Assembly (NCBI GenBank): GCA_003023195.1
Contig: PXRX01000008.1
Location: 186,569 to 250,568 of the forward strand
Direction of reading: 5' to 3'
DNA length: 64,000 nucleotides
Source: Halobacteriales archaeon QS_8_69_26
GTDB lineage: Archaea; Halobacteriota; Halobacteria; Halobacteriales; SW-7-71-33
Below the pieces are notes generated by a model that saw only the letters and a list, made by a program, of their open reading frames with translations, was not told the DNA's origin and did no database searches. The position numbers and the translations under genes were made by a program. This document shows positions 1 through 33,302 of this stretch, in pieces (within the stretch, counting starts at the first letter, position 1; every line of letters starts with the position of its first letter).

Positions 1-1
1 G

Positions 2-2411
2 ACCGGGACTCCGGGGGGCGGTCGGTTGCCGGACCTCCGGATGCGGGAGCCGGGACCGGCGGCGGGGGACCGGTCGACGACCGACCGACGAGCGACCGAC
101 CGGCCGGGGGGAGAGGGACCGGATCGGGCGGATGTGGATGCCTCCCCGACCGACCGGCCGGCGGTGGATGGACCCGACCGGCCGGGGGTTGACGGCCCGG
201 CGACCGACCGACCCGGGGTCGACGCCCCGATTCCCGACCGACCGGCGACGGATCCGGCGGGTCAGGACGCGGCCGACAGGGGTCCCAGGCCCTCCGACAC
301 CGGCGGGATCCGCCTCGGGCACGACCCACCGTCGCTCGCCCGGTCCCCCGCCGACCGGCCGGCGGCCGGGCCCCGGGCGGGTGGGCGTACGACCGGCGCG
401 ACGGGCCGATCCGCCGCGGACCGACCGGTCGCCGGGACGGGCGTTCCCGGGAGTCGTGCGGGGCGTGACGTGTCGGTCCTGCTCTCGGGGCCGTCCACGG
501 CTCCGGGAGCGCCCGGGACGGCCGGGTCGGCGAACGGCGGGCCCGCACCGTCGCCCGCCGGGTCGACCAGGCGGGTGTTCCGGCGGCCACAGTCCCCGAC
601 TCCCCCGGGCGTGGACCGCCCGCGGCGGGGTGACCGCCCGGACACCGGCGACCGTCGGGGGACCGGGGACGGTCCCGCGCGGACGCCGGATCGACCGGGG
701 ACCGGCGACCGTTCCGGCGGCGACCGTCCGCACCGGTCGAGGGCCGCCGACCGGGCGAGCGATCCCGGGTCGATGGGTGTCGGCAGTTCCGGCGGGGCGG
801 GTGGACCCGCGGACGCCGACCGGACGGGGCCCGCGACGACGCTCGACCGCCTCGTGGCCCGGCGCAGCTACACCCTGGCGTCCGGTCCCGGGGGGATCCA
901 GTCCGGGGACGGTCCCGGCGGCCGCTCCCCGGGCGTCGGTCGTCCGGGCGGTGACGCTGGCGGGTTCGCCGGCGGGGCCCGCAGGACGTTCGCGACCCCG
1001 TCCCTCGACCGGGTCGTGGTCGACCGCGAGTACGACCGGCCGCCGACGTCCGTCGGCGCGGCCGGCGAACGAGTCCACCGGAGAACCGGGGATCGCCGAC
1101 CGTCCGGGATCGGACGTCCCGTCCGGGTCGGGGCCGGGGGTCGCCGGCGGGCCGGGGGAGACACCCGGTCCCCTCGACCTGCCCGGTACCGGGCCGGGTC
1201 CCGGCGGCTCCGCAGGACGCCCCGGCGGACTGCCGGGTCCCGGCGGCCGGGTGCGAACGACGCTCCGGCGGCCGACGCCGGACCTCGCGGAGTCGCGACG
1301 CTCGCGCGCGGCCGACCGCCGGCGGGGGAGCGATACCGGTTCGAGCGCCCGCCGGTCGTCCGGGGCGACGCTCCCGGAGCGACGGCGGCGGGCGAGCGAC
1401 CGGGCGCCGGGGAGCGGTGGTACCCGGGCGAGCGGGGCCGCGAGCCGCACGGGACGGACGGGGATCGCGGGACGACCCGGGGGCGACGGTGCGATCCCGG
1501 GGTCCGGCCGTGGATCGGCCGGCGGGGTGCCATCGCCGGGTTCTACGCCCCGCCTGGTCCAGCGGTCCCCTGCGACGCCGGCGACCCCGGACGTCGACCG
1601 CGCGGTCGAGGGCGGGACCGGGACCGACCGGCCCGGCCCCGGCGCGGGGGACGGTTCCCCGTCCGGGGTGGGCGGCCCCGCCGACGACGGGGGGATCACG
1701 GTCACCGACGCGGGGGCGTCCATCTCGCGGATCGCGACGGGCCGCGACGGGCTCTCGGACGGCTCCGTGAGCAGGTTGGTCCGGGCGGGCGACTCGCCGG
1801 GCGGGGCGACGGCGCCGACGGTCCTCGCGACCGGTGCCACCGGACCGGCCGGTGTGGGCGACGGCGAGACCGGTCCCGGCACCGACGCCGAATTGGGGGT
1901 GCCCCAACCGGTGGAAAAAAGTAGTGGGAGTGCGCACGTCCCACAGGACCCCACAGGGGCCGTGTCCGATATGCCATCGCTCACCCTGAACCGCGACGCC
2001 AGCGCGGGCGACGACGGTGACCGCGTCGGTCCGCGCGGTCCCGACGCCGGCCCCGACGGCCCGGGTCCGGTCGGCGGAACCGGGGACACCCTCCCCGGAT
2101 TCAGCTTCAACCGCGACTCGTCGGGCGGCGACCGCGCCGAGGCGTCCGGCGAGGAGGCGGTCGGGGAGGTCGACCGGACGGGGGGAACGACGGCCGGCGC
2201 GAGCGACGGCCGGACGGAGCGGCAGTCGAGGAGCGTCGATCCGGGCGAGGGGGAGTCCACCGAGGACGTCTCCCCGGGGGTCGACGAACTCCTCTCGCCC
2301 GAAGGGCCGGAACTGCTCGCGTACGACGCCGACGTCGACCGCGTGGTCGACAGGCTCTACCGCGAACTGGAACGGAAGATGCGGATCGAGCGAGAACGGA
2401 GGGGACTCTAA
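2..2411 (+). CDS. eCIS-associated Gly/Pro/Arg/Asp-rich low-complexity protein, 5' truncated, with apparent internal frame switch (frame 2 to frame 3)
   Basis: Asp-rich repeats (TDRPxVDGPDRPGVDGP, LDRLVARRSYTLA, SLDRVVVDREYDRP) in frame 2 up to about 1.1 kb; frame 3 later contains a VQRSP motif and ends VDRVVDRLYRELERKMRIERERRGL, the usual C-terminus of the eCIS gene preceding the LysM protein; stop abuts the next ATG. Confidence 0.55.
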   Translation, partial: PGLRGAVGCRTSGCGSRDRRRGTGRRPTDERPTGRGERDRIGRMWMPPRPTGRRWMDPTGRGLTARRPTDPGSTPRFPTDRRRIRRVRTRPTGVPGPPTPAGSASGTTHRRSPGPPPTGRRPGPGRVGVRPARRADPPRTDRSPGRAFPGVVRGVTCRSCSRGRPRLRERPGRPGRRTAGPHRRPPGRPGGCSGGHSPRLPRAWTARGGVTARTPATVGGPGTVPRGRRIDRGPATVPAATVRTGRGPPTGRAIPGRWVSAVPAGRVDPRTPTGRGPRRRSTASWPGAATPWRPVPGGSSPGTVPAAAPRASVVRAVTLAGSPAGPAGRSRPRPSTGSWSTASTTGRRRPSARPANESTGEPGIADRPGSDVPSGSGPGVAGGPGETPGPLDLPGTGPGPGGSAGRPGGLPGPGGRVRTTLRRPTPDLAESRRSRAADRRRGSDTGSSARRSSGATLPERRRRASDRAPGSGGTRASGAASRTGRTGIAGRPGGDGAIPGSGRGSAGGVPSPGSTPRLVQRSPATPATPDVDRAVEGGTGTDRPGPGAGDGSPSGVGGPADDGGITVTDAGASISRIATGRDGLSDGSVSRLVRAGDSPGGATAPTVLATGATGPAGVGDGETGPGTDAELGVPQPVEKSSGSAHVPQDPTGAVSDMPSLTLNRDASAGDDGDRVGPRGPDAGPDGPGPVGGTGDTLPGFSFNRDSSGGDRAEASGEEAVGEVDRTGGTTAGASDGRTERQSRSVDPGEGESTEDVSPGVDELLSPEGPELLAYDADVDRVVDRLYRELERKMRIERERRGL

Positions 2412-3038
2412 ATGGTCGAGAAGGCAGAAATAAAGATACTCAAAGGCAAGCGATCCGGCGACGTGATAAAGTGTCGGTTCAATCCACCGGAGTACAGCGT
2501 CAAGAGTTCGGTCAACTACGAGGACAACAAGGCCTCACAGAACGAGAAGTCGGAACTGCAGTTCGGGAGCCGGGAGTCGGACCAGCTCTCGATGGAGCTG
2601 TTCTTCGACACGTCCGAGGAGCAGTCCGACGTCCGGAAGAAGTACGTCGAGAAGTTGACCTACCTCACCCGGGTCGACACCTCCTACAAGGCACCGCCGC
2701 CGGTACAGTTCGTGTGGGGCTCGGGTATCTGTTTCACCGCGCTCGTCGAAAGCGTGGACAAGACGTTCACGATGTTCCTGCCCGACGGGACGCCCGTCCG
2801 GGCCCGGGCCAACGTCACGTTCAAGGAAGTCAACCCGAAGAAGTACAGCGGCGGTGGTGGCGGCGGTGGTGGCGGCGGGTCCAAGACCCACACCGTCAAG
2901 GAGGGGGACACCCTCTGGTTCATCGCCGCCGAGAAGCTCGGCGACCCCTACCAGTGGGAGGCCATCGCCGACGAGAACGGCATCAGTGACCCGCGAGAGC
3001 TCGAACCGGGAACCACCTTGACGATCCCCACCGGGTGA
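2412..3038 (+). CDS. CIS tube-initiator/baseplate protein with C-terminal LysM domain (Afp7-like)
   Basis: KCRFNPPEYSVKSSVNYED N-terminus typical of CIS tube family, poly-Gly linker, LysM THTVKEGDTLWFIAAEKLGDPYQWEAIADENG. Confidence 0.9.
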   Translation: MVEKAEIKILKGKRSGDVIKCRFNPPEYSVKSSVNYEDNKASQNEKSELQFGSRESDQLSMELFFDTSEEQSDVRKKYVEKLTYLTRVDTSYKAPPPVQFVWGSGICFTALVESVDKTFTMFLPDGTPVRARANVTFKEVNPKKYSGGGGGGGGGGSKTHTVKEGDTLWFIAAEKLGDPYQWEAIADENGISDPRELEPGTTLTIPTG

Positions 3039-3043
3039 TCGGG

Positions 3044-4096
3044 ATGCCGGAAGTCAAAGACGTCAAGCAGGAGTCGAAACCGCCCCAGCACCTCAAGTTC
3101 ACCGTCGACATCGAGGGCACCAAGTACCAGGAGCAGGACCAGCGGATCACCGACCTGATCGTCGAGTCGGTCCTGGACGGTGCCGACCGGTTCGCCATCA
3201 CCCTGAACTACAACTTCAGCCGGGAGCAGGACGCTTTCGAGGAGTTCTCGCCGGGCGACTTCAAGGCCGGGAAGTCGATCACGATCAAGATGGGCTGGCA
3301 GAAACGGAACAACGAGCAGAAGACGTTCACCGGGACGATCCAGAACATGCAGTCGGAGTTCGGCCAGGGACGGGGCCCGACGGTCGGCATCTCCGGCTAC
3401 GGGCTGCTCCACGACATGATGCGGGGGACCCCCGACGACTCCTGGGAGGAGAGCGACAGCAAGAAGGTCAAGCTCAAGGACCCGGTCGAGGAGAAACTGG
3501 GGGAGTACTTCGGGGAGATGGACGTCCGGAAGGCGGACCTGGAGCGACACAAGATCGTCCAGCACGACGAGAGCGACTACCTGTTCGTCAAGCGCCTCGC
3601 GGACAAGTACGGCTTCCAGTTCTACACGGAGCGGGACAAGGTCTTCTTCATCCCGCGGACGGACCTGGGGGACAAGGGGCCCGTCGCGACGCTCGACCAG
3701 GACAAGGTCGAGAGCATCACGGGCGAAATCAACGAGTCCGACGAGGTGAAAGAGGTCGAGGTGCGGTGCTGGGACATGAGCAACGAGGAGGAGATAGTGG
3801 GGAGCGACAAGAAAAGCGAGGCCAAGAACAGCAAGAAGAAGGTCTACCGGATCCCCTGCGAGTCCAAGGCCGAGGCGGACAAGATCGCGGCCCACAAACT
3901 CGGCCAGCTCTCGAAGGAGCGACCCACCGTCCACGTCGAGACCAGCCGCGGCAAGCCGGACATCAAGGCCAACGAGGTGGTCAAACTGGAGCAGTTCGGG
4001 GACAAGTTCTCGACGGAGTACTACGTGACGAGAGCCACCCACCGGATCAGCGACTCGGGCTACCGGACCTCGTTCGAGGGAACGGAGGTGCCCTGA
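3044..4096 (+). CDS. Phage late control D / gpD-like baseplate hub protein (VgrG N-terminal part)
   Basis: Position in CIS operon; YDESDYLFVKRLADKYGFQFYTERDKVFF-type gpD motif; ATG at 3044 just after the upstream stop. Confidence 0.85.
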   Translation: MPEVKDVKQESKPPQHLKFTVDIEGTKYQEQDQRITDLIVESVLDGADRFAITLNYNFSREQDAFEEFSPGDFKAGKSITIKMGWQKRNNEQKTFTGTIQNMQSEFGQGRGPTVGISGYGLLHDMMRGTPDDSWEESDSKKVKLKDPVEEKLGEYFGEMDVRKADLERHKIVQHDESDYLFVKRLADKYGFQFYTERDKVFFIPRTDLGDKGPVATLDQDKVESITGEINESDEVKEVEVRCWDMSNEEEIVGSDKKSEAKNSKKKVYRIPCESKAEADKIAAHKLGQLSKERPTVHVETSRGKPDIKANEVVKLEQFGDKFSTEYYVTRATHRISDSGYRTSFEGTEVP

Positions 4097-4848
4097 TGGA
4101 GCGAACGGAGTTCTTCGGTGGCGAACCCGAGGACGACATCAGCAAGATCCAGGGGCTGATGGTCGGCCAGGTCGCCGCCAACAGCGGCAAGGAGGACCCC
4201 GAAACCATCGGACAGGTGAAGGTCACGTTCCCCTTCCGGGACAAGGACGACGAGAGCTGGTGGGCGCGGGTCGCCACTGAGATGGCGAGCAGCGACTACG
4301 GGACGTGGTTCCTGCCCGAGGTCGGTGACGAGGTGGTCGTCGGGTTCGAGAACGGCGACATGCGCTACCCGGTCGTCCTGGGGTCGCTGTACACCGGCAA
4401 CAAGAAGCCGCCCTACAACAACGAGAACGAGGAGAACAACCACCGGGCGATCAAGTCCCGGTACGGTCACCTGCTGGACTTCCACGACAAGGACGGCAAG
4501 GAGAAGATCACGCTCAAGACGGGGGCGGACACCCCCCGGAAGCTCCTGATGGAGGACAAGGACGAGAAGATCACCCTCGACGACGGGACGAACACCATCG
4601 TGATGGACGGCAAGGGCGGGAAAATAGAGATCGACGCGGACAAGGAGATCAGTCTCACCTCGAAGAAGATCAAGCTCGAGGCGGACCAGAAGGTCGACAT
4701 CTCGGCGAAGCAGGAGGTGAACGTCTCGGCGAAGACGAAGATAGAGGTCTCCTCGAAGGGGCAACTCAAGGTGAAGACCTCGGGGATGGGAAAGATCGAG
4801 TCGTCCGGGATCCTGCAAATAAAAGGATCTCTGGTTCAAATAAACTGA
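4096..4848 (+). CDS. Phage baseplate assembly protein V / VgrG-type spike
   Basis: GLMVGQVAAN...GQVKVTFPF...WARVATEMASSDYGTWFLPEVGDEVVVGFENGDMRYPVVLGSLYTG, then beta-helix-like repeats; ATG overlaps upstream TGA. Confidence 0.92.
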   Translation: MERTEFFGGEPEDDISKIQGLMVGQVAANSGKEDPETIGQVKVTFPFRDKDDESWWARVATEMASSDYGTWFLPEVGDEVVVGFENGDMRYPVVLGSLYTGNKKPPYNNENEENNHRAIKSRYGHLLDFHDKDGKEKITLKTGADTPRKLLMEDKDEKITLDDGTNTIVMDGKGGKIEIDADKEISLTSKKIKLEADQKVDISAKQEVNVSAKTKIEVSSKGQLKVKTSGMGKIESSGILQIKGSLVQIN

Positions 4849-4854
4849 ACAACA

Positions 4855-5151
4855 ATGCCACCAGCAGCGAGAGTCGGAGACAACACGGCGCACGGCACCC
4901 CCCTCGGGCCCGGTCCGGGGAGCGCGAACGTGCTCATCGGCAAGATGCCGGCCTGGCGGGTCGGGTCGGACACCCACGCCTGTCCGATGACCACCCCGGC
5001 GGGAACGCCCCACGGGGCCGAGATCTGTCCGATGGGGAGCACCACGGTGCTGATAAACAACATGCCGGCCGCCCGGATGGGCGACACCCTCCAGGGGGCC
5101 GGGTCGCCGAACAGCATCGTTAAGGGGGAACCCACTGTCTTGATCGGGTAA
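4855..5151 (+). CDS. PAAR-domain spike tip protein
   Basis: PPAARVGDNTAHGTPLGPGPGSANVLIG...CPM...NNMPAARMGDT. Confidence 0.93.
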   Translation: MPPAARVGDNTAHGTPLGPGPGSANVLIGKMPAWRVGSDTHACPMTTPAGTPHGAEICPMGSTTVLINNMPAARMGDTLQGAGSPNSIVKGEPTVLIG

Positions 5152-5157
5152 TAACAC

Positions 5158-5556
5158 ATGGCACGGGACTTTCTCGGAAGCGGCTGGAGCTTTCCGGTCG
5201 AGACCGACCACAGAGGGAACATCGAACTGACGACCGACGACACCAGCATCCACCAGTCGATCCGGTTCATCCTGGGGACGGCCCAGGGGGAACGGGTGAT
5301 GCGTCCCGAGTTCGGCTGTGGGATCCACGAGTACATCTTCTCGTCGGTCGACCCGAAGACGCTGAACCTGATGGAGGAGGCCGTCTACGACGCGTTGACC
5401 CGGTGGGAACCGCGGATCGACGTCGAGGAGGTCGACGCCGAGGAGGACCCCAACAATCCCGGGCGGGTGCTCATCGAGATCCAGTACTGGGTCCGGAACA
5501 CCAACAGCCGGGAGAACATGGTCTATCCCTTCTACGTCGAAGAGGGTGAGGGATGA
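5158..5556 (+). CDS. GPW/gp25 family baseplate wedge protein
   Basis: RFILGTAQGERVMRPEFGCGIHEYIFSSVDPKTLNLMEEAVYDALTRWEPRIDV. Confidence 0.93.
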   Translation: MARDFLGSGWSFPVETDHRGNIELTTDDTSIHQSIRFILGTAQGERVMRPEFGCGIHEYIFSSVDPKTLNLMEEAVYDALTRWEPRIDVEEVDAEEDPNNPGRVLIEIQYWVRNTNSRENMVYPFYVEEGEG

Positions 5557-8500
5557 GGAACGGGCCAGTCGTCGACGGTCGATCACGGGAGGAACTGCTC
5601 GCGGAACTCAGGCGGGTCGCCGCTAACTACACCGAGGAGTGGGACCCCCACACCGAGGACTCCGGGACGACGCTGATGGAGATCGCCTCCCGGTTCGAGA
5701 CGGAGGTCGTCCAGCGACTCGACAGCGTCCCCGAGAAACACCGGGTCGCGTTCCTCGACGCACTGGACTTCGACAGGCGGCCGCCCCAGTCGGCGCGGGT
5801 GCCCCTGACGTTCGAGACGATAGACGGGACGGGACAGAACGTCGTCGTCCCGGGGGGAACGCAGGCGCTGGCCGAGACCGAGGAGGGCGACACGACCATC
5901 TTCGAACTCCCCCAGGACGGCGGGTTCGAGGCCACGCCGGCGGGACTCTCGGCGGCCTACGGCGTCGACCCGACGGCCGACCACCTGTTCGACCACCACG
6001 ACACCTTGACGAGCGGCGACGACGAACGGACCACGCTGTTCGGGGGCGAGGACCTCCAGGAGCACGTCCTCTACCTGGGCCACGACGACTTGCTCAACCT
6101 CAACGAGGGGTCGACGATAACCCTGGACATACTGACGAACGCGACCCGGGGAGTCATCGACGACTGCATCGAGTGGGAGTACTACGGCGAGGCCGCGGAC
6201 GCGACCGAGGGGGACCGGAACACCGAGGGGTGGCACCCGCTCCCCACGGAGACCAGCGAGACGCTGGACCCCGACGACGCCGACCTCGAGGAACTCACCG
6301 AGGCGGTCGGCGAACGGATCCGCGAGGTCGGCGGCGAGGTCATGGACGCGGGGGACAAACCGATCGAACTCTCCTTTACCGTCCCGGGGTCGGTCACCGC
6401 TCACGAGGTCGACGGCACCGAGAGCCGGTGGATCCGGGGCCGGGCGACCGGCGACGAGGAGACGTTCTTCGACATCGAGGTCGACGCGGTGTCGGTGAGC
6501 GTCGAACACGGCGACGAGGAGGCGGGGATCCCTCCCGACAACCTGTTCAACAACGACGTCCCGATCGAGTTCGACCAGGAGGAGGGCGAGGGGATGTACG
6601 GCGGGGACTTCTTCCCGCTGGGCAAGGTCCCACAGCCCCCCTCGACCATGTACGTCGCCTCCGAGGAGGCGTTCACGAAGAAGGGGTCGACCGTCGACAT
6701 CCGGCTCACCCCTCCCAAGGGGAAGAACAAGCGCGAACGCGTCGTCCTCCGCGGCGAGGGCGCGAGCTTCGGCGAGGCGACCGGGACGGTCTGGGTCGTC
6801 GACGACCTGCAGGACGTCCACCAGATCCGCGAGGGCGACATCGTGGTCACGGACATGACGACCACGAACATGGAACCGGACATCGAGCGCGCGGGTGCGA
6901 TCATCACCGAGGAGGGGGACCCGGACAGCCACGGTGCCAGGCTCGCCCGCGACCTGGAGATACCGGCGGTCGTCGGTGCGGAGGACGCCACCGAGGAACT
7001 GGAGGACGAACAGATCGTCACCGTCGACGGCGAGCGCGGCCGGGTGACGATCACCGAGTACATCGACGAGTTCGAGGACGACGAGACCGAGGAGGAGGCC
7101 GAGGACGACTGGGAGGAGTTCGGCGGTCAGATAGACCGCATGCCGGGGATGCTCGGGGGTCCCCCCGACATCTCCTGGGAGTACTGGGACGGCAACGGGT
7201 GGTCCCGGCTACCGCTGATCGTCGACGAGACCGAGGACCTCCAGGAGCCGGGACTGGTGAGCTTCGTCGTCCCGGAGGACCTGGACGAGACCTCCGTGGC
7301 GGGCCACGACAAGTTCTGGATCCGCGCACGACTGGTCAGCGGGGACTACGGCCAGCTCCAGTACGAGATGGGCGAGAACCTGGACGATCGACAGGGGTTC
7401 GACTCCCGACCGGAGCCGCCCCGGTTCCACGACATCTCCGTCTTCTACGGCCAGAGCCGCCAGCCCTTCCAGCACGTCGTCACCTACAACAACGCCGCGT
7501 ACGACTGGGTCCCCGACCCCGACGACGGGCCGCGGTTTTTCGTGCCGTTCGAGCCCGCCAGGGACGACACCCAGACGGTGTACCTGGGGTTCGACGACCG
7601 GCTCCACGACGGACCGATCAAGTTGCACGTGCCCATGCGCGACGACACCTACCCCCGGAGCTTCGACCCGGACATCCGGTGGGAGTACTGCCCGGACCCC
7701 GAGGACGGCGACTGGCGGCGCCTGGACGCCCACGACGGCACCGAAGGGTTCACCGAACGGGGGATCGTCAGCCTCAACTTCCAGGAGGGAACGGAGGCGT
7801 TCTCGAAGTTCGGCGAGGAACACCACTGGGTCCGCGCCCGGGTGACCGGCGACGAGTTCAGCCCCGGCCCGACGGGGCCGGCCATCCGCAGGGTGAACGG
7901 ACGGATCCTCGAACGCAAGCCCGAGGACCGGACCCGGGCCCAGGGGTCGACGACGCCGCCGGCCCTGGAGGGGATCCACCCGAACACCCAGTGGGCGCAC
8001 AACTCCGAGACGATAGAGGAGGAGATACTCGGCTCCAGCGACGGGACCCACGGCCAGGAGTTCACCTGCTACAACACACCCGTCACCGAGATAGAGGTGT
8101 GGGTCGACGAGGTGTCCTCGCTGTCGCGAAAGGAGATGCAGGAACTCGAGGAGACCCGTCCCGAGGACGTCGACCGGCTTCCGGAGACGGACGAACCGGT
8201 CGAGTTCTGGGTCCGGTGGGAGGAGGTCTCGGACTTCCTCGAGTCGGACTCGTCGTCCCGCCACTACCGGGTCGACCGCACCAGCGGGACCGTCACCTTC
8301 GGGGACGGCCAGCGCGGCAAGATACCGCCCCGGGCGGAGAACAACCTCAGGGTGACCTACAAGACCGGCGGCGGGAGCGAGGGGAACGTCGACGCCGGGG
8401 CCGTCGGCGACCTCAGGACGCCCATCTCGCGGATCGACGAGGTCACCAACCTGCGCCCGAGCGACGGCGGGGCGGACGCCGAGTCGATGGACACGGTCGT

Positions 8501-9179
8501 CGACAGGGCACCGAAGCGGATCAGGAACAGGGACCGCGCGGTCACCCCGGCGGACTTCGAACAGGTGGCGAAGGCGGCCTCCCGGGAACTGGCCAAGGCC
8601 AACTGCGAACCCGAACGCGACGAGAACGGCAACCGCAACCCCGGGTACGTGACCCTGCTCATCGTCCCACGGGAGCGCCGGGAGCGTCCGACGCCGTCGA
8701 CCGAACTCCGGACCCGGGTGCTGGAGGCGATTCGGGAGCGGGCGCCGGCGACGCTCGTCGGCCCCGAGCAACAGCGGATCATCGTCAGGGGGCCCAGCTA
8801 CGCGGAGGTGTCCGTGGAGGCGGACGTCTACACCCACGGGGTCGAGAGCGTCTCGATGCTCAAGTCGGAGATCGAATCGGAGGTGGACGACTACCTCCAC
8901 CCGCTGACCGGCAACGAGGAGGGCAACGGGTGGGAGTTCGGGGAGGCCCCCCGGCTCTCGCAGCTCATCTCGCTCATCGAGGACGTCCGCGGCGTCGAGA
9001 CGGTCGAGGACCTGGTCGTCTCGGTCGGGACGCGGGGCCGCCGGATCAAGATCCGCGACGAGGGCGCCTCGCCGGACCTGGCCTGGGACACGCTGGTCTC
9101 GACCGGTACGCACGAAATCGCCGTCGACATGGCGGGGGAGCACGAGGTGCAGGTCAAGATGACGGAGGTCGAGGAATGA
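5553..9179 (+). CDS. Putative baseplate assembly protein (gpJ/Afp11-like) with inserted phosphohistidine swivelling domain
   Basis: gpJ hallmarks (FYPLGK-like, ISWEYWDGNGW, VTFGDGQRGKIPP, NRDRAVTPADFEQVAK); insert LRGEGASFGEATGTVWVVDDLQDVHQIREGDIVVTDMTTTNMEPDIERAGAIITEEGDPDSHGARLARDLEIPAVVG. Confidence 0.92.
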   Translation: MRNGPVVDGRSREELLAELRRVAANYTEEWDPHTEDSGTTLMEIASRFETEVVQRLDSVPEKHRVAFLDALDFDRRPPQSARVPLTFETIDGTGQNVVVPGGTQALAETEEGDTTIFELPQDGGFEATPAGLSAAYGVDPTADHLFDHHDTLTSGDDERTTLFGGEDLQEHVLYLGHDDLLNLNEGSTITLDILTNATRGVIDDCIEWEYYGEAADATEGDRNTEGWHPLPTETSETLDPDDADLEELTEAVGERIREVGGEVMDAGDKPIELSFTVPGSVTAHEVDGTESRWIRGRATGDEETFFDIEVDAVSVSVEHGDEEAGIPPDNLFNNDVPIEFDQEEGEGMYGGDFFPLGKVPQPPSTMYVASEEAFTKKGSTVDIRLTPPKGKNKRERVVLRGEGASFGEATGTVWVVDDLQDVHQIREGDIVVTDMTTTNMEPDIERAGAIITEEGDPDSHGARLARDLEIPAVVGAEDATEELEDEQIVTVDGERGRVTITEYIDEFEDDETEEEAEDDWEEFGGQIDRMPGMLGGPPDISWEYWDGNGWSRLPLIVDETEDLQEPGLVSFVVPEDLDETSVAGHDKFWIRARLVSGDYGQLQYEMGENLDDRQGFDSRPEPPRFHDISVFYGQSRQPFQHVVTYNNAAYDWVPDPDDGPRFFVPFEPARDDTQTVYLGFDDRLHDGPIKLHVPMRDDTYPRSFDPDIRWEYCPDPEDGDWRRLDAHDGTEGFTERGIVSLNFQEGTEAFSKFGEEHHWVRARVTGDEFSPGPTGPAIRRVNGRILERKPEDRTRAQGSTTPPALEGIHPNTQWAHNSETIEEEILGSSDGTHGQEFTCYNTPVTEIEVWVDEVSSLSRKEMQELEETRPEDVDRLPETDEPVEFWVRWEEVSDFLESDSSSRHYRVDRTSGTVTFGDGQRGKIPPRAENNLRVTYKTGGGSEGNVDAGAVGDLRTPISRIDEVTNLRPSDGGADAESMDTVVDRAPKRIRNRDRAVTPADFEQVAKAASRELAKANCEPERDENGNRNPGYVTLLIVPRERRERPTPSTELRTRVLEAIRERAPATLVGPEQQRIIVRGPSYAEVSVEADVYTHGVESVSMLKSEIESEVDDYLHPLTGNEEGNGWEFGEAPRLSQLISLIEDVRGVETVEDLVVSVGTRGRRIKIRDEGASPDLAWDTLVSTGTHEIAVDMAGEHEVQVKMTEVEE

Positions 9180-9213
9180 CCCGGGCGGCCGGACTGGCAG
9201 GAGGTGACCGGCA

Positions 9214-18044: not shown

Positions 18045-18278
18045 ATGATCGAGGTCTACCCCCTCGGACGGCTCTACGAGGAAATAGCGTTCGTCGCCTA
18101 CCACTTCCAGTGGAACGAGGAGGAGATCCTCGAGATGCCACACTGGGTTCGCCAGCGTTGGTGCGAGGAAATAAGTAAGATCAACGAAGAACTAAACAAG
18201 GAAGCCCGCGAATCGAGCGATCAGGGGGGAACCACCACGATCCGCCTCGACGGTCCCGATTCGCCGTTCGGAGTGTGA
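18045..18278 (+). CDS. DUF6760-like small CIS protein
   Basis: LYEEIAFVAYHFQWNEEEILEMPHWVRQRWCEEI; position between assembly protein and tube 2. Confidence 0.75.
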   Translation: MIEVYPLGRLYEEIAFVAYHFQWNEEEILEMPHWVRQRWCEEISKINEELNKEARESSDQGGTTTIRLDGPDSPFGV

Positions 18279-19515: not shown

Positions 19516-19581
19516 GGCCGATCCCACGTCGTCCACTCCCTTCACTTTATTGCCGCCGGATCGCCCTCGGAATCGTGGTCT

Positions 19582-22122: not shown

Positions 22123-22251
22123 CGGGCGGAACGCACCGCGGAGTCGGGGGACCGACCGGCTCCGCGAACGGGTGGACGGGTCGACGCCCGGTTCGAGGGT
22201 CCACGACCCTCGGTGCCGTCGCCACGACCGAACCGGATCGCTCGGGGGACG

Positions 22252-24649: not shown

Positions 24650-24655
24650 GAGACA

Positions 24656-26110
24656 ATGCAGTATGCAACCGCATTCGACATCGGCAAACGGAAGCGCGAG
24701 CAGGGCGGGATCAACGAGGACAGCGTCGCGGTCGACCTGCTCAACGACGGGCACCGGGACTCCGAGCGCCGGGCCGCCGTCTTCACCCTCGCGGACGGGG
24801 CGGGCGGGGCCAAGGCCGGCGACGTCGCCTCCTACGTCATCACCGTGGAGGTGACCCGCCGGCTCACCGAGAAGCTCTGGAACACCCGGAGACTCGGCGA
24901 AATCATCGACGCGGGGTCGCGCCAGGGGGCCACCATGGGGACCCGTGGGCTGGGCGATTCGGTCACGAACGATCCCCTCGCCGAAATCACCGACGACGGC
25001 GTCCACATCATCATCGAGGAGGCCATCCAGGAGGCCCACACCCGGCTGATCGAGGTCATCAACGAGTACGACCTGGAGAGCGCCTACTCGACGGTCGTCG
25101 CCGGGATCAAGATCGGTGACACGTTCCACTACGGCTGGGTGGGCGACAGCCGCGCCTACGTCGTCAACACGGCCGAGGAGCGCGACGAGGACCAGCGGGT
25201 CAGCCTCCTGACCAAGGACCACTCGGTCGTCGAGCGCCTCGTCAACGAGGGCGAGATAGACGAGGTCGAGGCCTACGTCCACAGGCGAGGCAACCGCGTC
25301 ACGCGGGCGCTCGGGGGCAACCGCGGCGAGGACCCCGAAGCCAGCCGGGTCGACGTCGACACCAACTCCATCCAGCTCTACGGCGACGACGTCCTCCTGA
25401 TCACCAGCGACGGACTGATCGACGCCTACACCGGCGCGCCCGAACTCCACAAGCAGTACGAACAGGCCGACGACACCGAACAGATCGAGGAGGCCATCCT
25501 GGAGAAGTCCGTCACCGACGACGAGATACGGGACGTGATCCTCGAGGCCGCTACCCTGGACGCGGCCGCACAGGAGTTCGTCGACCTCTCGAACGAGCGC
25601 GGCGGGAAGGACAACGTCTCGCTCGTTCTCTTTCGCGACGGGAACCTCCCGCGGTCGCCGGTCGGCGGGTTGCCCGTCCGACTGTACGACCCCGACCCCG
25701 AGGAGATATACGACTGGGAGACGGTCCTGATGCACTCGGAGGACGACGCCGACAAGCCGGTCGCCTCCGCCGAGAGCGGCGGGGGCGGGACCGCCTCGGC
25801 TGCCGCGACGGCCGCCGAACCGGAGGCCGCCTCGGCGGCCGCGTCCCCCGACGCCGAGGGGACGACCGCCGACGTCGCCGCGGGTGCCGACGCCGACCCG
25901 GACGAATCCGTCGCGGAGGAGGTGGACGAGGACGCGGAGTCGGCCACCGAGTCCGAGACGGAGGGGACGGGCTCGGAGACGGAGGAGACGGACGCCGACA
26001 CGGAGGAGTCGACAGCCGGGGACGACGGATCCGGGGATGACGAGGGTGGCGACGACTCCGGGCCCGATGCCTCCGACTTCGAGTTCTCGTTCAGTTCCGA
26101 CTCCGAGTGA
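24656..26110 (+). CDS. PP2C-family serine/threonine phosphatase with acidic C-terminal tail
   Basis: GGINEDSVAV, LADGAGGAKAGDVAS, GWVGDSRAYV, TSDGLIDAY, GGKDNVSLVLF. Confidence 0.93.
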   Translation: MQYATAFDIGKRKREQGGINEDSVAVDLLNDGHRDSERRAAVFTLADGAGGAKAGDVASYVITVEVTRRLTEKLWNTRRLGEIIDAGSRQGATMGTRGLGDSVTNDPLAEITDDGVHIIIEEAIQEAHTRLIEVINEYDLESAYSTVVAGIKIGDTFHYGWVGDSRAYVVNTAEERDEDQRVSLLTKDHSVVERLVNEGEIDEVEAYVHRRGNRVTRALGGNRGEDPEASRVDVDTNSIQLYGDDVLLITSDGLIDAYTGAPELHKQYEQADDTEQIEEAILEKSVTDDEIRDVILEAATLDAAAQEFVDLSNERGGKDNVSLVLFRDGNLPRSPVGGLPVRLYDPDPEEIYDWETVLMHSEDDADKPVASAESGGGGTASAAATAAEPEAASAAASPDAEGTTADVAAGADADPDESVAEEVDEDAESATESETEGTGSETEETDADTEESTAGDDGSGDDEGGDDSGPDASDFEFSFSSDSE

Positions 26111-26119
26111 CTGCCCGGC

Positions 26120-27364
26120 TCACCCGATTTCGGTGCCGCAGGCCGGACAGAAGGCGCCCTCGGGGTCGACCGGTTCGCCGCAGTTCGAGCAACTGACCTC
26201 CCCGGGTTCGTCGTTCTCGTCGACGTCCTCCAGGTCGACGGCCCCGGACTCGACGAGGGTGACCGCCCGCTCGGCGGCCGCACGGAGTCCGTCGGGGGCC
26301 TCCTCCTCGGCGGCCAGCCCCCGGAGGTCGCCCAGTCTGAGCCCCGCCGGGGGGTCCCGCTCGTCGAGGTTCTCAAGGATGCCGACGAGGCCGTCGCGGG
26401 CGGCCTCGACGTCCTCCGGGAACTCCTCGGCTAGCGCCGAGAGCGCCCCCAGCGAGTTGTGCCGGACCGCCCGGTCCTCGTCGGCCACCCGTCGGGTCAA
26501 AAGATCCACCGTCGGCCTGGGGGCCTCGGGGTTCTCCTCTGCCAGGTAGGCCAGCGCGAACGTGACGTGGCGCTTGACCCCGGTGTCGTCGTGGTCGAGT
26601 CGTTCGAGCAGCGACTGGGCGGTGTCCGCGTGACGGCCCGACGGCTGGCGGGTGGGGTACCCCAGCGCGTAGGCCGCGGCCGCGCGGACCTCCGGGTCGT
26701 CGTGGTCGGTCAGTTCGATCAACCGCTCGGCGGCGTCGAGGACGTCCTCCGGGGAGGCCACCCCCACGTTGCCCAGGGCGTAGGCGGCGTTCTTGAGGAC
26801 CGCCTCGGAGTCGTCCTCGAGTCGTTCGCGGAGCCCCTCGCCCCCCTCGGCGACGGCCTCGGGGTCGGCACCGGCGATGTCGCCCAGCGTCTTGGTGACG
26901 TTGACCCGCACCTCGGCCGTCTCGTCGTCCAGGAGCGAGAACAGCCGTTCCAGTACGCCCTCCTGGGCCAGCGCCTCGGGGTCGGCCTCGGCGATGGACT
27001 CCAGGGCGTAGGTGACGTTCACCCGGATGGTCCCCTCCTCGTCGATGACCGCGACCAGTGCCGGCAGGACCGCCGCCACCTCCCCGGGGTCCTCGTCGGC
27101 CACGTTCCCCAGTGCCAGTGCGGCGTCGTCCTGCAGGTGGTCGTCGTTCAGACACTCCGTCAGCGGGTCGACGAGCGCGACCCCGTCCCCCGGATAGCTC
27201 TCGGTCAGCCGCACGACCGTCCGCAACGCCCGCCCCCGAACGTAGTCGCTCTCGGCAGTCAGGAGGTCCGCCAGTTCCGAGACGTGCCCCCGGAGTTCCG
27301 GAAGCCGGGTCTCGGCCATCCTCGCCAACTCGTCGGCCTTCGATCGCGCTTCGCTCTCGGCCAT
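26120..27364 (-). CDS. HEAT-repeat protein with C-terminal zinc ribbon
   Basis: Tandem HEAT/PBS-lyase-like repeats; C-terminus CSNCGEPVDPEGAFCPACGTEIG. Confidence 0.85.
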   Translation of the reverse strand: MAESEARSKADELARMAETRLPELRGHVSELADLLTAESDYVRGRALRTVVRLTESYPGDGVALVDPLTECLNDDHLQDDAALALGNVADEDPGEVAAVLPALVAVIDEEGTIRVNVTYALESIAEADPEALAQEGVLERLFSLLDDETAEVRVNVTKTLGDIAGADPEAVAEGGEGLRERLEDDSEAVLKNAAYALGNVGVASPEDVLDAAERLIELTDHDDPEVRAAAAYALGYPTRQPSGRHADTAQSLLERLDHDDTGVKRHVTFALAYLAEENPEAPRPTVDLLTRRVADEDRAVRHNSLGALSALAEEFPEDVEAARDGLVGILENLDERDPPAGLRLGDLRGLAAEEEAPDGLRAAAERAVTLVESGAVDLEDVDENDEPGEVSCSNCGEPVDPEGAFCPACGTEIG

Positions 27365-27494: not shown

Positions 27495-28967
27495 TCAGGC
27501 CGCGGCCCGCGTGACGTCCCGGTAGTAGGTCAGCAGCGACCCGACGAGCAGTATCCCGGCCCCGGTCCGGACGATGGGGTGGCCGAGACCACGCAGGAGC
27601 CGTCGGATCCACGGCGGCAGCCACCGGGGGCCGGATGCGTAGTCCGGTTCGACCGGTCTCGCCACCCGGACGTTCACCCGGAACCTGTCGGCTTTCACCC
27701 GGCTCCCGGTCCAGTCCTCGACCCGGCGCTCGGCCTGGCGCTGGCTGGGCGGTGGCTCCCCGCGACGGTCCCTGTCGTTGGCCCACGCCAGGAGGTCGCC
27801 GACGGTCCTGTCGTGGTCGGACAGCATCGCCGCCAGCCGGGACAGCACCGCCGCCCCGCGGAGCCGGCCCGCCTCGGAGTCGGTCCCGTCGGCCAGCAGG
27901 CGGTGTTCGGTCTCGCCCCCCTTCGCGAGGACCCCGTCGTGGTCGCGCGGGGCCGCCAGCCCCTGTTCGAGCGCCAGCCGTACCGAGAGGTAGCTCGCGC
28001 TGGCCTCCCGGAACCACCCGAACTCCTCGCCGGAGAGGTTCCCCTGCCGGGTGTGGACGTACTCGTGGATCCAGACGTTCCAGGCCGCCGACAGCCGTGC
28101 CCCGGCGTAGACGACGAACTCGTTCGCCCGGGCCTGCCCCGCGACGGTGCCGTTGGGCAGCCCCGGCATCGCGAACACCCGCACGTCGCGGTAGACGTGA
28201 CCCACGTCGAGGCGGCGGGCGCTCTCCGCCAGCGTCCGGAGGACCCGGTCCGGGTCGGCCAGCCGTTCCCGGTCGACGGCGTCCGGCACCACCAGCGTGA
28301 TGGTCTGGCACCCGACGGTCGTCCGGTACCGGTCGACCCCGTCCAGCACCAGGAACCGTGCACCGATCACGCCCTCCCCGGCCGGTCGCAGTTCCACGTC
28401 CGGGCCGGTCCGGAGCACTCGCCCCACGAGGTGGTCCTCGCCGCTGGGGAACGGGAACGCCCGGCCCTCCAGGGTTCGTCCGGTCGTCCGGACCCGGACC
28501 CGGGGGTTCTCGGTCGACCCGTCCCAGGCGAACTCGCCGTCCCCGGTGGGCCCGAAGCCGTCGGCGGAGACGACCTCTGCCCCGGGAACGTCGCCGACGG
28601 TGAAGGTCCGGGACCGCGAGGCCGGGACCCGGAACTCGACGAGGTACACCGACCGGTTGAGCGCGGCCTGGCGCACGACCCCCACCACTCCGTCCCCCTC
28701 GGCCGCCGTCGCCTCCGCCCGGTCGTCCTCGCCACCGGTGAATCCCCTACTTTCGTACTCCGCCTCCGGGCTCCCGATGCACTCCTCCGGGGGACCGTCG
28801 TCGGGGTATCGCTCCTCGACGACGCCCGTGCCGGAACTGAGCGCCGGCGCGGCGACGATGGTACAGCAAAGGATCGCCACGAGGACGGGGACGGCCCCGG
28901 TCCGGAGCCGCCGGAGTCCCGCCCTGAGTTCGGCGCGGATCCCGTTGGGGGGTGTTCCCTCCTCCAT
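27495..28967 (-). CDS. Membrane-anchored HExxH metallopeptidase-like protein
   Basis: N-terminal TM LRTGAVPVLVAILCCTIVAAPAL; WIHEYVHTRQGNLSGEEFGWFREASASYLS; C-terminal TM. Confidence 0.7.
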   Translation of the reverse strand: MEEGTPPNGIRAELRAGLRRLRTGAVPVLVAILCCTIVAAPALSSGTGVVEERYPDDGPPEECIGSPEAEYESRGFTGGEDDRAEATAAEGDGVVGVVRQAALNRSVYLVEFRVPASRSRTFTVGDVPGAEVVSADGFGPTGDGEFAWDGSTENPRVRVRTTGRTLEGRAFPFPSGEDHLVGRVLRTGPDVELRPAGEGVIGARFLVLDGVDRYRTTVGCQTITLVVPDAVDRERLADPDRVLRTLAESARRLDVGHVYRDVRVFAMPGLPNGTVAGQARANEFVVYAGARLSAAWNVWIHEYVHTRQGNLSGEEFGWFREASASYLSVRLALEQGLAAPRDHDGVLAKGGETEHRLLADGTDSEAGRLRGAAVLSRLAAMLSDHDRTVGDLLAWANDRDRRGEPPPSQRQAERRVEDWTGSRVKADRFRVNVRVARPVEPDYASGPRWLPPWIRRLLRGLGHPIVRTGAGILLVGSLLTYYRDVTRAAA

Positions 28968-29147
28968 CGACGGCGCTCCACCCGGTTTCCGGCGTGGTGC
29001 TTCCCCCACTAATGTCCGGGGATCTGTCGAGGGACTGTGGGATCCGACGGTGGAGGACGGCACTCCGTGGGGTGGTCGTGGGCGGATCCGCCAGGGAACC
29101 GTGGGAGAAAGCCAGTCCGTCGGGGGAGGACGGCCCCGGGAAACGGA

Positions 29148-32100
29148 TCAGTCGTCGCCGTCGCTCGGTTCGGGTTGTTCGCTCTCGGTAGCGGCGTCGT
29201 CGGCGTCGTCCTCGTCCTCGCCGGGTTGCATGATGATGGTCTCGGAGGTCTCGTCGTCCTCGTCGTCGGCGTCGGGGTCCATGATCAGCGTCTCCGAGGT
29301 CTCGTCGTCCTCGTCGTCGCCGGGTTGCATGATGATGGTTTCGGAGGTCTCGTCGTCGTCGGCCGCGTCCCCCTCCTCGTCGGCGTCGCCGGCACCGGTC
29401 TCTTCGTCGGCGTCCCCGGCCTCGCTCTCGTCGTCCCCGTCGTCGCCGGGTTGCATGATGATCGTTTCGGAGGTTTCGTCGTCGCCCTCCGCGACGGCGT
29501 CTCCCTCGTCCCCGGCCTCGCTCTCGTCGTCGCCGGGTTGCATGATGATGGTCTCTGAGGTCTCGTCGTCGGCGTCGGCCTCGTCCCCTGCATCGTCGTC
29601 GCCGGGTTGCATGATGATGGTCTCGGAGGACTCGTCGTCGGCCTCGGGTTCGTCGCCCTCGTCCACTGCGTCTGCCCCCTCGTCGGCGTCGCCGTCGTCG
29701 TCGCCCGGTTCCATGATGATGGTTTCCGAGGACTCGTCGCCGTCGCCGGCGTCGGCCTCCGTCTCCGGGCTCTCGCTCCCGTCGTCCTCGTCGCCGCCGG
29801 GTTCCATGATCAGCGTCTCGGCGTCCTCGTCGTCTTCGTCCTCGGCCTCGACGCGGGTTTCCTCCTCGCCGACGGCGCCGAAGTCGAACTCGCCCTCGTC
29901 CATCTCGTCGAGATCGTCGCCGCCCTCCATCGGGTCGAACACGCGGGTGTCGCCGGAACTGCCGGCCTCGTCGGCGTCCTCGACGTTCCAGACCTGGGTC
30001 TCCTCGCCGGCGGGACCCTCGGGTTCGGTCCCACCGGTGGGGGTGCCGGTCTGGACGGCGCTGGCGGCCGACTGGAGGGTCTCGCCCTCGATGTCGACCG
30101 CGGGGTCGCGCTGGAGGCGCCGGAGGCGGTCCGAGGCCTCGGCGGCCGGGTCGACCAGGCCCGGATCACGCTCCGCGAGGGTCACGATGACCTCCGCGGC
30201 CCGCTCCCTGACGATGGAGGAGTCGTCGTCCAGGCGGCCGATCACCCGGCGGATGTCGGAGGCGATTGCGGCGGGTTCGTGGGCCGCGAGTTCGTCCAGG
30301 GCGTCCAGCGCGGTCGCCCGGGTCCGGGTGTCGCTGTCGTCGATGACGACCGCCAGGTTCTCCGCGACGGGTTCGACCGCGCTGGGGTTGTGGTCGGCGA
30401 CGTTCGCGAGCACCTCGGCGGCGTTGCGCCGCACCCGGACGCTCCCCTCCTCAAGCGCGGCCGTGACGGCCGGGATGGCCTCCCGCGAGGCCTCGGGGAA
30501 CTCCTCGGAGAGGTTCGCCAGCGACTGGAACACCGCCTCGCGGGTCGCTCCGCCGACGTTGCCGGCGATGTTGACCAGCGGTTCGATCAGGTTGTCGCCG
30601 CGGCTCACGCCGTGGTCGGTGACGTCGCCGACGAGTTCGGCGGTCACCTCGCTGACGTTCTTGCCAGCGATCATCGCGCCGGCGTACTGGCGCGAGACCG
30701 GGGTCGGGTTCCCCAGGCCGGCGGCCATCTCCGGGAGGACCTCGGTCCCGTAGCCGGGGTACTCGTCGAGGACCCGCGAGAGGCCGCTGATGGCCATCTC
30801 GCCGACCGTGCCGGAGGTTCCGAGGTTCAACACGAGTCCCTCGACGAACGGGCGGCCGTCGTCGGGCGAGGCGGCGATGACCGTCGCCGCCGCCGCGACG
30901 CAGTGCTCCCGGACCGTCTCGCTCTGGTGGGTCAGTCCCGACTCGATGGCGGTCATGACCCTGTCGTCGTGGCGCTCCTCGGGGTTGAACTGGATGAGGT
31001 CCTTCAGGACCTGCGCGGCCGGTTCGCTGACGGTCGCGTCCTCCACCGGGACGTACTCCGCGACGATGCCGGTCGCGTCGGGATACTCGGCGAGCTGGTC
31101 CGGTGGGACGAGTTCCAGCGCCCGCAGCAGTGCGGACTCGGCGGTGCCGGCGAGCGCGGAGTCCTGGTTGGAGAGGTGGGCGACGATGTCCTCGACGACG
31201 GCACCGCGGCGCTCCTCCGAGGCGGCCTCGACGAACGCGAACACCGCCTCTGCGGCCTGTCCCCGCGACTGCTCGTCGGGGTCGTCCAGCATCCCAAGCA
31301 GCCGGTTGGGGTCGATCCGGTTGGCGTGGCGTGACATCGAGGACTCCAGGACGTGGGCGGCCATGTACCGGACCAGCGGCTCGTCGCTCTCGACGCCCGA
31401 GAGTACCGTGTCCAGGCCGCTCGTCTCGACTATCGCCGTGTCGCTCGTCAGTGCGTACGCGGCCGCCGCGCGCGCTTCCCCGTCGGTGAACTCCGACCAC
31501 CTGACCAGGTCGACCAGGATCCGTTGCTCGTCCTCGCTCCCCAGGACCGTCCCCAGGTCGGCCCGGGCGTACCGGCTCTCGTCGGTGGCCCGGTGGGCGG
31601 TGTACCAGAGGCGAGCGAATGCCTTCACGACCGAACTCGTCAGGTCGATGTCGGCGGGTTCGTCGCCCAGGATCTCCTCGATCCGCTCGATGGGGAGGTC
31701 CTCGACCTCGTCCAGTGGCGGGCGCTCGACTTCCTGGCTCGTGTACCCGATCAGCAGGATCCGGGCGTATGCTTCGACGCCCAGTTCGCGGGTGGTCCGG
31801 TCCTCGCCGTCCAGGTGCTTCTGGACGGCCGCGAGGACGGCCTCGTCGGTGAGGCGGTCGACTGTCTCCAGGGCGCGCTCCCCACGCAGGAGTTCGACGA
31901 CGCCCATCAGGGCTGGCCGTGCGAACTTCTCGTCGTCGAGGTACAGCGCCCCGACGAACTCCTCCAGGGCCTCGTCCTCGCGGTACAGCGACGCCCCGGC
32001 GGCGATCGCCAGCCCCTCGAGGGCCGTCGAGCGGAGGCCGTCGTCGCGGGCGCGAACGTACGCGAGCAGGCGGTCGATCTCGCCTTCGGTGATCGAGGAC

Positions 32101-33302
32101 GGGTCCTCCTCGACGCGCTCTATCATCCCCTCTATCTCGTTCGTCTTGAGGACGCTGGAGACGCGGTTCGCGCCGTAGCCGAGCGGTAGCGCGACGACCG
32201 GCAACAGGAACGCCGCCCGGACGGTGAAGTCCTGGAGCACGCCGACGACGACGTCGAGGAGGACCAGGCCGACCATCACGTAGCCGCCACAGACGAGACC
32301 GACCAGGACGGCGTCGCCACCGATCCCGGGGATCGAACTGCCGGGGCCGCTCGCGAACCTCGTGGTCGCGCCCCGGGGGTCGACGGCGCCGGCGATGGCG
32401 ACGATAACCGAGACGAACAGCATCAGGTGGAGGACCGCGCCTTGCGTGTAGGTGATCACGAGCACCGAGTAGAGGAGGAAGACGCCGACGGGAACGACCA
32501 CGTTCCCGACGATGGAGGGGGTCCGGGTGGGCGGGTACAGCCCCCGGTAGCCGAGCACCTCCGGGATCGTATTCCCCTCGGAGTACTTCGCGTAGTGGAC
32601 GGCGAGGAACGCGCCCACGACGACCAGCGGGAGCAGGTGGCCGGCGTCGACCGTCGGGGAGTAGACGCCGGCGAGGACGGGCGTGAACCCGTCCGAGGCG
32701 TTGACGTTCACGCCGATGGCCCCCCCGAGTTGCTCGGGGACGACCTTCCAGACGCGGTAGACGGGGTTGATGGAGAACAGGGCCGCCCACAGCAGGTAGA
32801 CCGGGACCCTGGCGAGACTCTCCCAGAGGGCCGCTCGCCTCGCCGCGTCGTCGGAGTCGACCCCGATCAGGAGCCGTTCGCGGAACTGCGATCCCACGTA
32901 CGCGACCGCGAGCGCCGGCAGCGCCAGTACCGTCCCGATGACCAGAAGCGGGAGTAGCTGGTCCGTCAGCCACTCGGCGGAACTCAGGTTCAGGACGAGT
33001 TCCTCCATGAGCTTCCTCCGCCGGTTCGCCCAGTCGCCCTGGAAGACGGTCACGGCCGCCGCCCTGGTCCCGACGTACAGTCCGACGAACGCGAGCGCCG
33101 ACGCCCCGAGCCACTGACCCATCGCGAGACGTTCGCCCTCGCCCGTGTACGTGCCGATCCGGTTCCGGTGGTAGCGTAACTTGTACCCGGCGTAGACGAT
33201 GGCGAACGCCGGGAACACCAGTTCCCATGGGAAGAAGGCCAGTCCGAGCGCGATCAGGAACGCGATCAGGGCCCCCTTTACCGCTCTGACCTCAAGCACC
33301 AT
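29148..33302 (-). CDS. Large polytopic-membrane HEAT-repeat protein with acidic C-terminal SETIIMQPGDD repeats
   Basis: Hydrophobic N-terminal segments, many HEAT repeats, then eight acidic Thr-containing motifs. Confidence 0.85.
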   Translation of the reverse strand: MVLEVRAVKGALIAFLIALGLAFFPWELVFPAFAIVYAGYKLRYHRNRIGTYTGEGERLAMGQWLGASALAFVGLYVGTRAAAVTVFQGDWANRRRKLMEELVLNLSSAEWLTDQLLPLLVIGTVLALPALAVAYVGSQFRERLLIGVDSDDAARRAALWESLARVPVYLLWAALFSINPVYRVWKVVPEQLGGAIGVNVNASDGFTPVLAGVYSPTVDAGHLLPLVVVGAFLAVHYAKYSEGNTIPEVLGYRGLYPPTRTPSIVGNVVVPVGVFLLYSVLVITYTQGAVLHLMLFVSVIVAIAGAVDPRGATTRFASGPGSSIPGIGGDAVLVGLVCGGYVMVGLVLLDVVVGVLQDFTVRAAFLLPVVALPLGYGANRVSSVLKTNEIEGMIERVEEDPSSITEGEIDRLLAYVRARDDGLRSTALEGLAIAAGASLYREDEALEEFVGALYLDDEKFARPALMGVVELLRGERALETVDRLTDEAVLAAVQKHLDGEDRTTRELGVEAYARILLIGYTSQEVERPPLDEVEDLPIERIEEILGDEPADIDLTSSVVKAFARLWYTAHRATDESRYARADLGTVLGSEDEQRILVDLVRWSEFTDGEARAAAAYALTSDTAIVETSGLDTVLSGVESDEPLVRYMAAHVLESSMSRHANRIDPNRLLGMLDDPDEQSRGQAAEAVFAFVEAASEERRGAVVEDIVAHLSNQDSALAGTAESALLRALELVPPDQLAEYPDATGIVAEYVPVEDATVSEPAAQVLKDLIQFNPEERHDDRVMTAIESGLTHQSETVREHCVAAAATVIAASPDDGRPFVEGLVLNLGTSGTVGEMAISGLSRVLDEYPGYGTEVLPEMAAGLGNPTPVSRQYAGAMIAGKNVSEVTAELVGDVTDHGVSRGDNLIEPLVNIAGNVGGATREAVFQSLANLSEEFPEASREAIPAVTAALEEGSVRVRRNAAEVLANVADHNPSAVEPVAENLAVVIDDSDTRTRATALDALDELAAHEPAAIASDIRRVIGRLDDDSSIVRERAAEVIVTLAERDPGLVDPAAEASDRLRRLQRDPAVDIEGETLQSAASAVQTGTPTGGTEPEGPAGEETQVWNVEDADEAGSSGDTRVFDPMEGGDDLDEMDEGEFDFGAVGEEETRVEAEDEDDEDAETLIMEPGGDEDDGSESPETEADAGDGDESSETIIMEPGDDDGDADEGADAVDEGDEPEADDESSETIIMQPGDDDAGDEADADDETSETIIMQPGDDESEAGDEGDAVAEGDDETSETIIMQPGDDGDDESEAGDADEETGAGDADEEGDAADDDETSETIIMQPGDDEDDETSETLIMDPDADDEDDETSETIIMQPGEDEDDADDAATESEQPEPSDGDD

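Follow-up and report, generated by a model that had tools for sequence, protein, structure and literature searches.

A kinase-FHA-VWA-PP2C module conserved beside a contractile injection system in one haloarchaeal lineage

Within the 64,000-nucleotide stretch of DNA analyzed here (G000:C8:186569-250568, referred to below as the window), Halobacteriales archaeon QS_8_69_26 carries genes for a contractile injection system (CIS) and, next to them, a block of kinase, FHA, VWA and PP2C phosphatase genes that might serve as its phosphothreonine switch. The host genome (G000) is a haloarchaeal draft of 3.29 Mb in 46 contigs, ∼87% complete. Positions 2412-19545 encode a CIS of the known haloarchaeal kind that resembles the type VI secretion system (T6SS), since sheath, tubes, baseplate, spike, PAAR, Cis16 and AAA+ ATPase genes lie in one cluster. 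Gene calls rest on profile evidence (Pfam, NCBIfam) together with codon evidence, and by both kinds every part of the near-complete operon named in an initial annotation of this sequence is real. The CIS side of the locus comprises the following features.

1668..2411, plus strand: C-terminal portion of a low-complexity gene with very high GC, which starts upstream of the window; ends LYRELERKMRIERERRGL
2412..3038, plus strand: CIS tube/LysM protein (Pfam CIS_tube 2.5e-31, LysM)
3035..4096, plus strand: hub, GPD-like (Pfam 2.5e-12)
4096..4848, plus strand: spike, Phage_base_V (Pfam 6.8e-23 for a longer open reading frame; start by codon model)
4852..5148, plus strand: PAAR tip (Pfam 3.6e-22)
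5158..5556, plus strand: gp25-like baseplate protein (Pfam 1.2e-27)
5553..9179, plus strand: first Baseplate_J wedge protein (Pfam 5.1e-16), with an inserted PEP-utilizer mobile domain at ∼6828-7040 (8.5e-22)
9214..11115, plus strand: second Baseplate_J wedge protein (Pfam 3e-14)
11122..13368, plus strand: Tail_P2_I, or gpI (Pfam 1.9e-11)
13526..14746, plus strand: Cis13 (NCBIfam CIS13_fam, 478.8 bits against a cut-off of 370)
15158..16870, plus strand: sheath, Cis2 (Pfam 5.2e-24; tree)
16903..17376, plus strand: gp19-type tube (Pfam 2.7e-26)
17488..18039, plus strand: small CIS protein of 183 aa, kept beside the sheath in 20/20 other loci compared
18045..18278, plus strand: small CIS protein of 77 aa, kept in 20/20 other loci compared
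18282..18881, plus strand: second gp19-type tube (Pfam 8e-33)
18895..19545, minus strand: Cis16, Pvc16_N (Pfam 2e-25), which the initial annotation had left unnamed

Haloarchaeal CISs are already known (PMC11566945), and those of Halogeometricum borinquense and Haloferax elongans have the same core genes. The T6SS-like CIS described in haloarchaea is a membrane-bound machine for contact-dependent killing. The AAA+ ATPase does lie outside the window, as had been stated, yet on the same contig ∼7 kb upstream (L002:10413-12524), and it matches the AAA genes of other CIS loci. No tape measure was identified at this locus, in agreement with the earlier reading; it is also listed as not found in the H. 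borinquense CIS (PMC11566945). Near the AAA+ gene is a 493-aa gene with multiple predicted transmembrane helices, whose relatives (26-31% identity) occur in many haloarchaeal CIS loci, where they adjoin Cis16 or the LysM tube gene; in character it resembles the reported H. borinquense anchor Hbor_38620. A DUF6760 gene in H. larsenii occupies the position equivalent to that of the 77-aa protein gene.

The signaling block next to the CIS genes (19722-33302) also contains what had been claimed for it, namely two kinase-FHA genes (K1 and K2), a zinc ribbon-FHA gene (ZnFHA), a VWA gene, a PP2C gene and two HEAT genes. The genes thus stand, with the correction that the minus strand encodes K1 as well as Cis16.

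19722..20918, minus strand: K1, kinase-FHA (kinase 2.3e-27, FHA 1.4e-4)
21124..22122, plus strand: zinc ribbon-FHA, ArnA-like (zinc ribbon by Pfam, FHA fold by model)
22213..23412, plus strand: VWA, ArnB-like (Pfam 5.8e-16; start possibly 22309)
23417..24649, plus strand: K2, kinase-FHA (kinase 1.6e-30, FHA 3.5e-7)
24656..26110, plus strand: PP2C phosphatase (NCBIfam Stp1 model 4.5e-37, below the model cut-off)
26120..27364, minus strand: HEAT protein, zinc ribbon at the C-terminus; kept in QH_10_67_22 and J07HX64
27495..28967, minus strand: protein with one predicted transmembrane helix and without close family match
29148..33302, minus strand: HEATmem, a HEAT membrane protein of 1384 residues with multiple transmembrane helices; tail at ∼29223-30002 with ∼10 candidate threonine tags

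Only a few bases separate the VWA, K2 and PP2C genes, an operon-like arrangement. Hydropathy marks both kinases as soluble, and their FHA signature (GR, S, NGT) and catalytic residues are invariant.

If the module controls the CIS, the initial annotation had reasoned, its genes should recur beside sheath and tube genes in other haloarchaea and should not be found mostly away from CIS loci. Across the class, that expectation fails. Among 400 Halobacteria-class genomes screened for sheath and K2, 49 have a sheath, 55 have K2 and 8 have both, where ∼6.7 would be expected by chance (Fisher p 0.35); in the seven double-positive genomes besides G000, sheath and K2 are either on separate contigs or hundreds of kilobases from each other. 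The 20 K2 loci that we inspected all retain an intact VWA-K2-PP2C core, with no CIS gene in the 20 kb stretch, and a further set of named K2 loci is likewise without CIS, the closest relatives excepted. Conversely, no signaling or HEAT homologs were found around the sheath in 20 other genomes (∼19 kb on each side). The class-wide survey and these 20 CIS loci rule out kinase, FHA, VWA and PP2C genes as general partners of haloarchaeal CISs. As a family, the signaling block stands alone and is normally independent of CIS.

A different result was obtained for the orthologous subfamily. A scan of named genomes and phylogenetic trees, made after the survey, revealed closer K2 relatives. K2 of the window forms one clade (support 100/100) with those of the metagenome-assembled genomes (MAGs) QH_10_67_22, QH_2_65_14 and J07HX64. 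A CIS is present in all four genomes and the module is physically linked to it in three, and the clade is known solely from CIS-bearing genomes. A single clade (100/98) likewise unites the sheaths of these genomes, with the internal topology of the K2 tree. QH_10_67_22 has the identical gene order, tube2-Cis16(-)-K1(-)-ZnFHA-VWA-K2-PP2C-HEAT(-)-HEATmem(-), and a second K2 that groups among free-standing copies. In QH_2_65_14 the block is split: one contig has Cis16-K1 after the sheath and tubes, and another has the AAA+ ATPase followed by ZnFHA-K2-PP2C. K1 adjoins Cis16 on the same strand in the window and in both of these MAGs. In J07HX64, the CIS and K2-PP2C-HEAT share one 2.98 Mb scaffold. 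Rio2 of the host genome is 67-69% identical to that of the three MAGs and 66-70% identical to that of other haloarchaeal families. At such an inter-family distance, recent kinship alone does not explain the conserved gene order. Linkage in two of three clade members (the seed, G000, being left out) compared with none of the free-standing loci gives p ∼0.002, a value that is indicative only, as the free-standing count contains some genomes in duplicate and the clade was chosen post hoc. Coupling of CIS and module is therefore real and conserved, but narrow, being confined to one subfamily.

Short threonine motifs recur in proteins of the block. In VWA orthologs, 19 of 22 C-termini carry one (e.g., ATKIVTD, TTVVYDD), as does the window protein (TTTKVKDN, ∼23386-23409). 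Many PP2C orthologs have RETLIMSDE-like tails, with WETVLM at the equivalent place in the window (tag ETVLM near residue 355). The motif is most abundant in the HEATmem tail, where ∼10 copies (ETQVW, DTRVFDP, ETIIMQP and variants) are found; the motif-pattern count is 8, while shuffled tails average 0.004. The HEAT membrane protein of QH_10_67_22 retains SGDTRLFDP, and in free-standing modules HEAT, transmembrane and other neighbors bear TKIYDP, TEVFNP or TRLYDP near their C-termini. As read from their sequence, these tags are plausible phosphothreonine ligands for FHA domains. A shortened HEATmem query matched only a same-genome paralog and generic HEAT proteins. That paralog, upstream of the CIS (L002:3389-6496; 51% identity over residues 680-1091), has beta-propeller-like repeats, one transmembrane helix, HEAT repeats, a TTRVFDP tag and a C-terminal zinc ribbon.

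Judged by sequence profiles and predicted folds, the closest known relative of the signaling module is Sulfolobus ArnA/ArnB, and not PpkA/PppA/Fha of the T6SS, because the VWA protein matches ArnB and the zinc ribbon-FHA protein has its domains in the order seen in ArnA. The AlphaFold model of the VWA protein (pLDDT, the predicted local distance difference test score, of 90.9) combines a vWA domain, a beta sandwich and C-terminal helices in one protein. Its best Protein Data Bank (PDB) matches are the bacterial vWA protein 4FX5 and ArnB (8S05), and Foldseek aligns it with ArnB over the full length (8S05_A, E 2e-24, 402 columns, TM-score 0.70-0.74); ArnB is also the top match of the sequence profile (E 8e-21). 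For the zinc ribbon-FHA protein, the FHA domain is sub-threshold in Pfam, but the AlphaFold model (pLDDT 91) has FHA domains as its best PDB matches. A profile match to ArnA was obtained (8S05_C, E 1.5e-4), although by sequence this FHA domain matches ArnA no better than it does other FHA domains. Zinc ribbon with FHA, vWA with beta sandwich and C-terminal helices, and Hanks-type kinases are thus shared with the ArnA-ArnB-ArnC/ArnD-PP2A network. The locus differs in that its kinases carry FHA domains, its phosphatase is of PP2C rather than PP2A type, it has short C-terminal motif tags, and it lies beside a CIS and not the archaellum.

In the Arn network, the C-terminal region of ArnB is phosphorylated by a kinase and then bound by the FHA domain of ArnA, and the two proteins regulate archaellum expression (PMC6509490, PMC12852372). 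By analogy with these closest structural relatives, the module might control expression of the CIS genes and not the assembled machine, and the orientation of K1, which is the same as that of Cis16 and divergent from that of ZnFHA, would suit such a role. We nevertheless regard expression control as improbable, given that zinc ribbons are the only DNA-binding candidates identified and that a membrane protein bears the tag array.

The initial annotation had likened the block to the T6SS threonine phosphorylation pathway. This parallel survives as an analogy; homology to the TagH/Fha protein was rejected, since its model TIGR03354 scores 19.5-20 bits against a cut-off of 120.25. The analogy consists in a kinase, PP2C and FHA inside a contractile-machine cluster, in this lineage only, and in a membrane protein with a candidate phosphothreonine (pThr) site as FHA ligand, comparable to TssL pThr14 in Agrobacterium. 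However, the kinases here are soluble and FHA-bearing, and the machine is built from Cis-type genes.

Kinases paired with a phosphatase also occur in phage defense; KKP is a known two-kinase-one-phosphatase defense module (PMC11341870), and PADLOC kinase models match both K1 (best E 1e-34) and K2 (2e-41). These matches are confined to the kinase domain, as expected of any such kinase, while VWA and PP2C have none, and the combination of ZnFHA, FHA and tags is unlike KKP. Moreover, related Haloarculaceae keep the module with recurring neighbor genes, unlike typical defense islands. We therefore consider it very unlikely that an anti-phage module of KKP or PD-T4-6 type has merely been placed beside the CIS, and rejected the defense label from PADLOC, as no match to either architecture extends beyond the kinase domain. 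Scans of viral contigs returned no relatives of K1 or K2.

The reading that we favor, with a probability of about 0.5, is that a haloarchaeal phosphothreonine module, widespread in itself, has entered the CIS locus as a dedicated copy whose complex gates the CIS. K1 and K2 would phosphorylate threonine tags on VWA, PP2C and above all the HEATmem tail; the FHA domains of K1, K2 and the zinc ribbon-FHA protein would read these tags, so that a membrane-attached complex forms on HEATmem; and PP2C would erase the phosphorylation. In this lineage, the complex might then act as a gate for the adjoining CIS, at the level of its production, its docking to the membrane or its firing. By domain logic and conserved sequence, the kinase-tag-FHA-PP2C part of the scheme is most likely to operate in this manner. 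That the module acts on the CIS is suggested by conserved linkage and congruent trees, and it may do so. More tentatively, one may picture a contractile weapon of archaea that has a phosphothreonine switch of its own, built from ArnAB-like parts independently of the bacterial T6SS pathway, in which the ∼10 tandem tags of HEATmem form a multisite FHA docking array that determines the time or place of CIS anchoring or firing.

Several observations weigh against a gating role. VWA-K2-PP2C occurs at dozens of haloarchaeal loci without CIS nearby, so that the basic job of the module must be something else. A search for the tag in CIS proteins found no recurrent one. The K2 clade was delimited post hoc, and each of its only four genomes is a draft or a MAG. 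Within it, K1 of QH_2_65_14 (L191:9032-10157) has its kinase and FHA parts in two frames, owing to either a broken gene or a sequencing error, and K2 of J07HX64 is ∼94 kb from the sheath only if the scaffold is circular. In addition, the downstream genes Rio2, LplA and Nfo are shared with QH_10_67_22, a synteny implying that the locus was inherited in place.

These points lead to the strongest rival, to which we grant a real though lesser chance: CIS and module would be neighbors by descent, the module having met the CIS once in an ancestor of the lineage and still regulating its own clients, such as HEAT, beta-propeller and zinc-ribbon proteins. The chance-level co-occurrence and the downstream synteny fit this account, as do the tags, which are on module and HEAT proteins rather than CIS proteins, with tagged HEAT neighbors also in free-standing islands. 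Simple descent does not readily accommodate the split block of QH_2_65_14, both parts of which are still linked to CIS genes. Nor does it readily explain why CIS and module have stayed together over an inter-family distance at which the flank keeps only three recognizable shared genes, or why the CIS-linked K2 is a distinct clade when QH_10_67_22 has a separate free-standing copy.

Killing of neighboring cells by an archaeal T6SS-like CIS was shown only in 2024, and we found no account of how such systems are controlled in the literature searched. That literature, whose journal coverage was partial, also reports no phospho-module at any archaeal CIS; the H. borinquense paper describes no kinase, FHA or PP2C block, and kinase and FHA are unmentioned in its main text (PMC11566945). 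A lineage having both a CIS and a dedicated kinase-phosphatase-FHA module offers a direct, testable entry into CIS control. Should the module indeed gate the CIS, the bacterial T6SS phospho-switch would have a convergent equivalent in archaea.

Some minor features of the CIS genes were also noted. The insert in the first wedge protein (∼6828-7040) is a PEP-utilizing-enzyme mobile domain, i.e., a swiveling phosphohistidine domain, with the SHG histidine motif present (Pfam 8.5e-22); used as a query, this region had no counterpart at any other CIS locus compared, and QH_10_67_22 was among them. Upstream of the tube/LysM gene, ∼5 kb of ∼80% GC, low-complexity sequence (from L002:17231-19969 to window position 2411) lacks a single reading frame and ends LYRELERKMRIERERRGL. 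At the same position, QH_2_65_14 has a far shorter protein that ends in the same way (LYRELERKMRIERERRGL). Candidate readings of this stretch are a decayed, an expanded or a mis-assembled gene. The gap between Cis16 and K1 contains two 48-bp direct repeats that are 88% alike (19591-19686). An in-frame extension upstream of Cis16 with TTRIGNP repeats was judged non-coding, with no start codon seen in the gap to K1.

In its free-standing form, the module seems to represent a haloarchaeal phosphothreonine network that is widespread and little described, with a recognizable candidate ligand tag. Around three such modules (L044, L048, L049), additional genes of the FHA, beta-propeller, zinc-ribbon, SCP/CAP-like and HEAT kinds make up larger islands, and several of their products end in TxhhxP tags; these islands are a possible phosphothreonine client network. 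Several kinases at one haloarchaeal locus had been reported in 2010 in an FtsZl1-vWA context (PMC2875224), and such FtsZl1-vWA-kinase loci, e.g., Huta_2050-2056 of Halorhabdus utahensis, share with the block several kinases and, commonly, vWA genes. They differ in that no FtsZ-like gene was seen in the block, and PP2C and FHA are unmentioned in that report. One free-standing module is reminiscent of these loci, with an FtsZ/tubulin-like gene adjoining its VWA gene (L050:12847-15312). A MoxR-type AAA ATPase gene recurs near others (L045, L046, L051), and the window has a copy at 62540-63496. Finally, K2 and PP2C from a MAG labeled Phycisphaerae bacterium (L140) group inside the haloarchaeal sequences, probably reflecting a misbinned contig.

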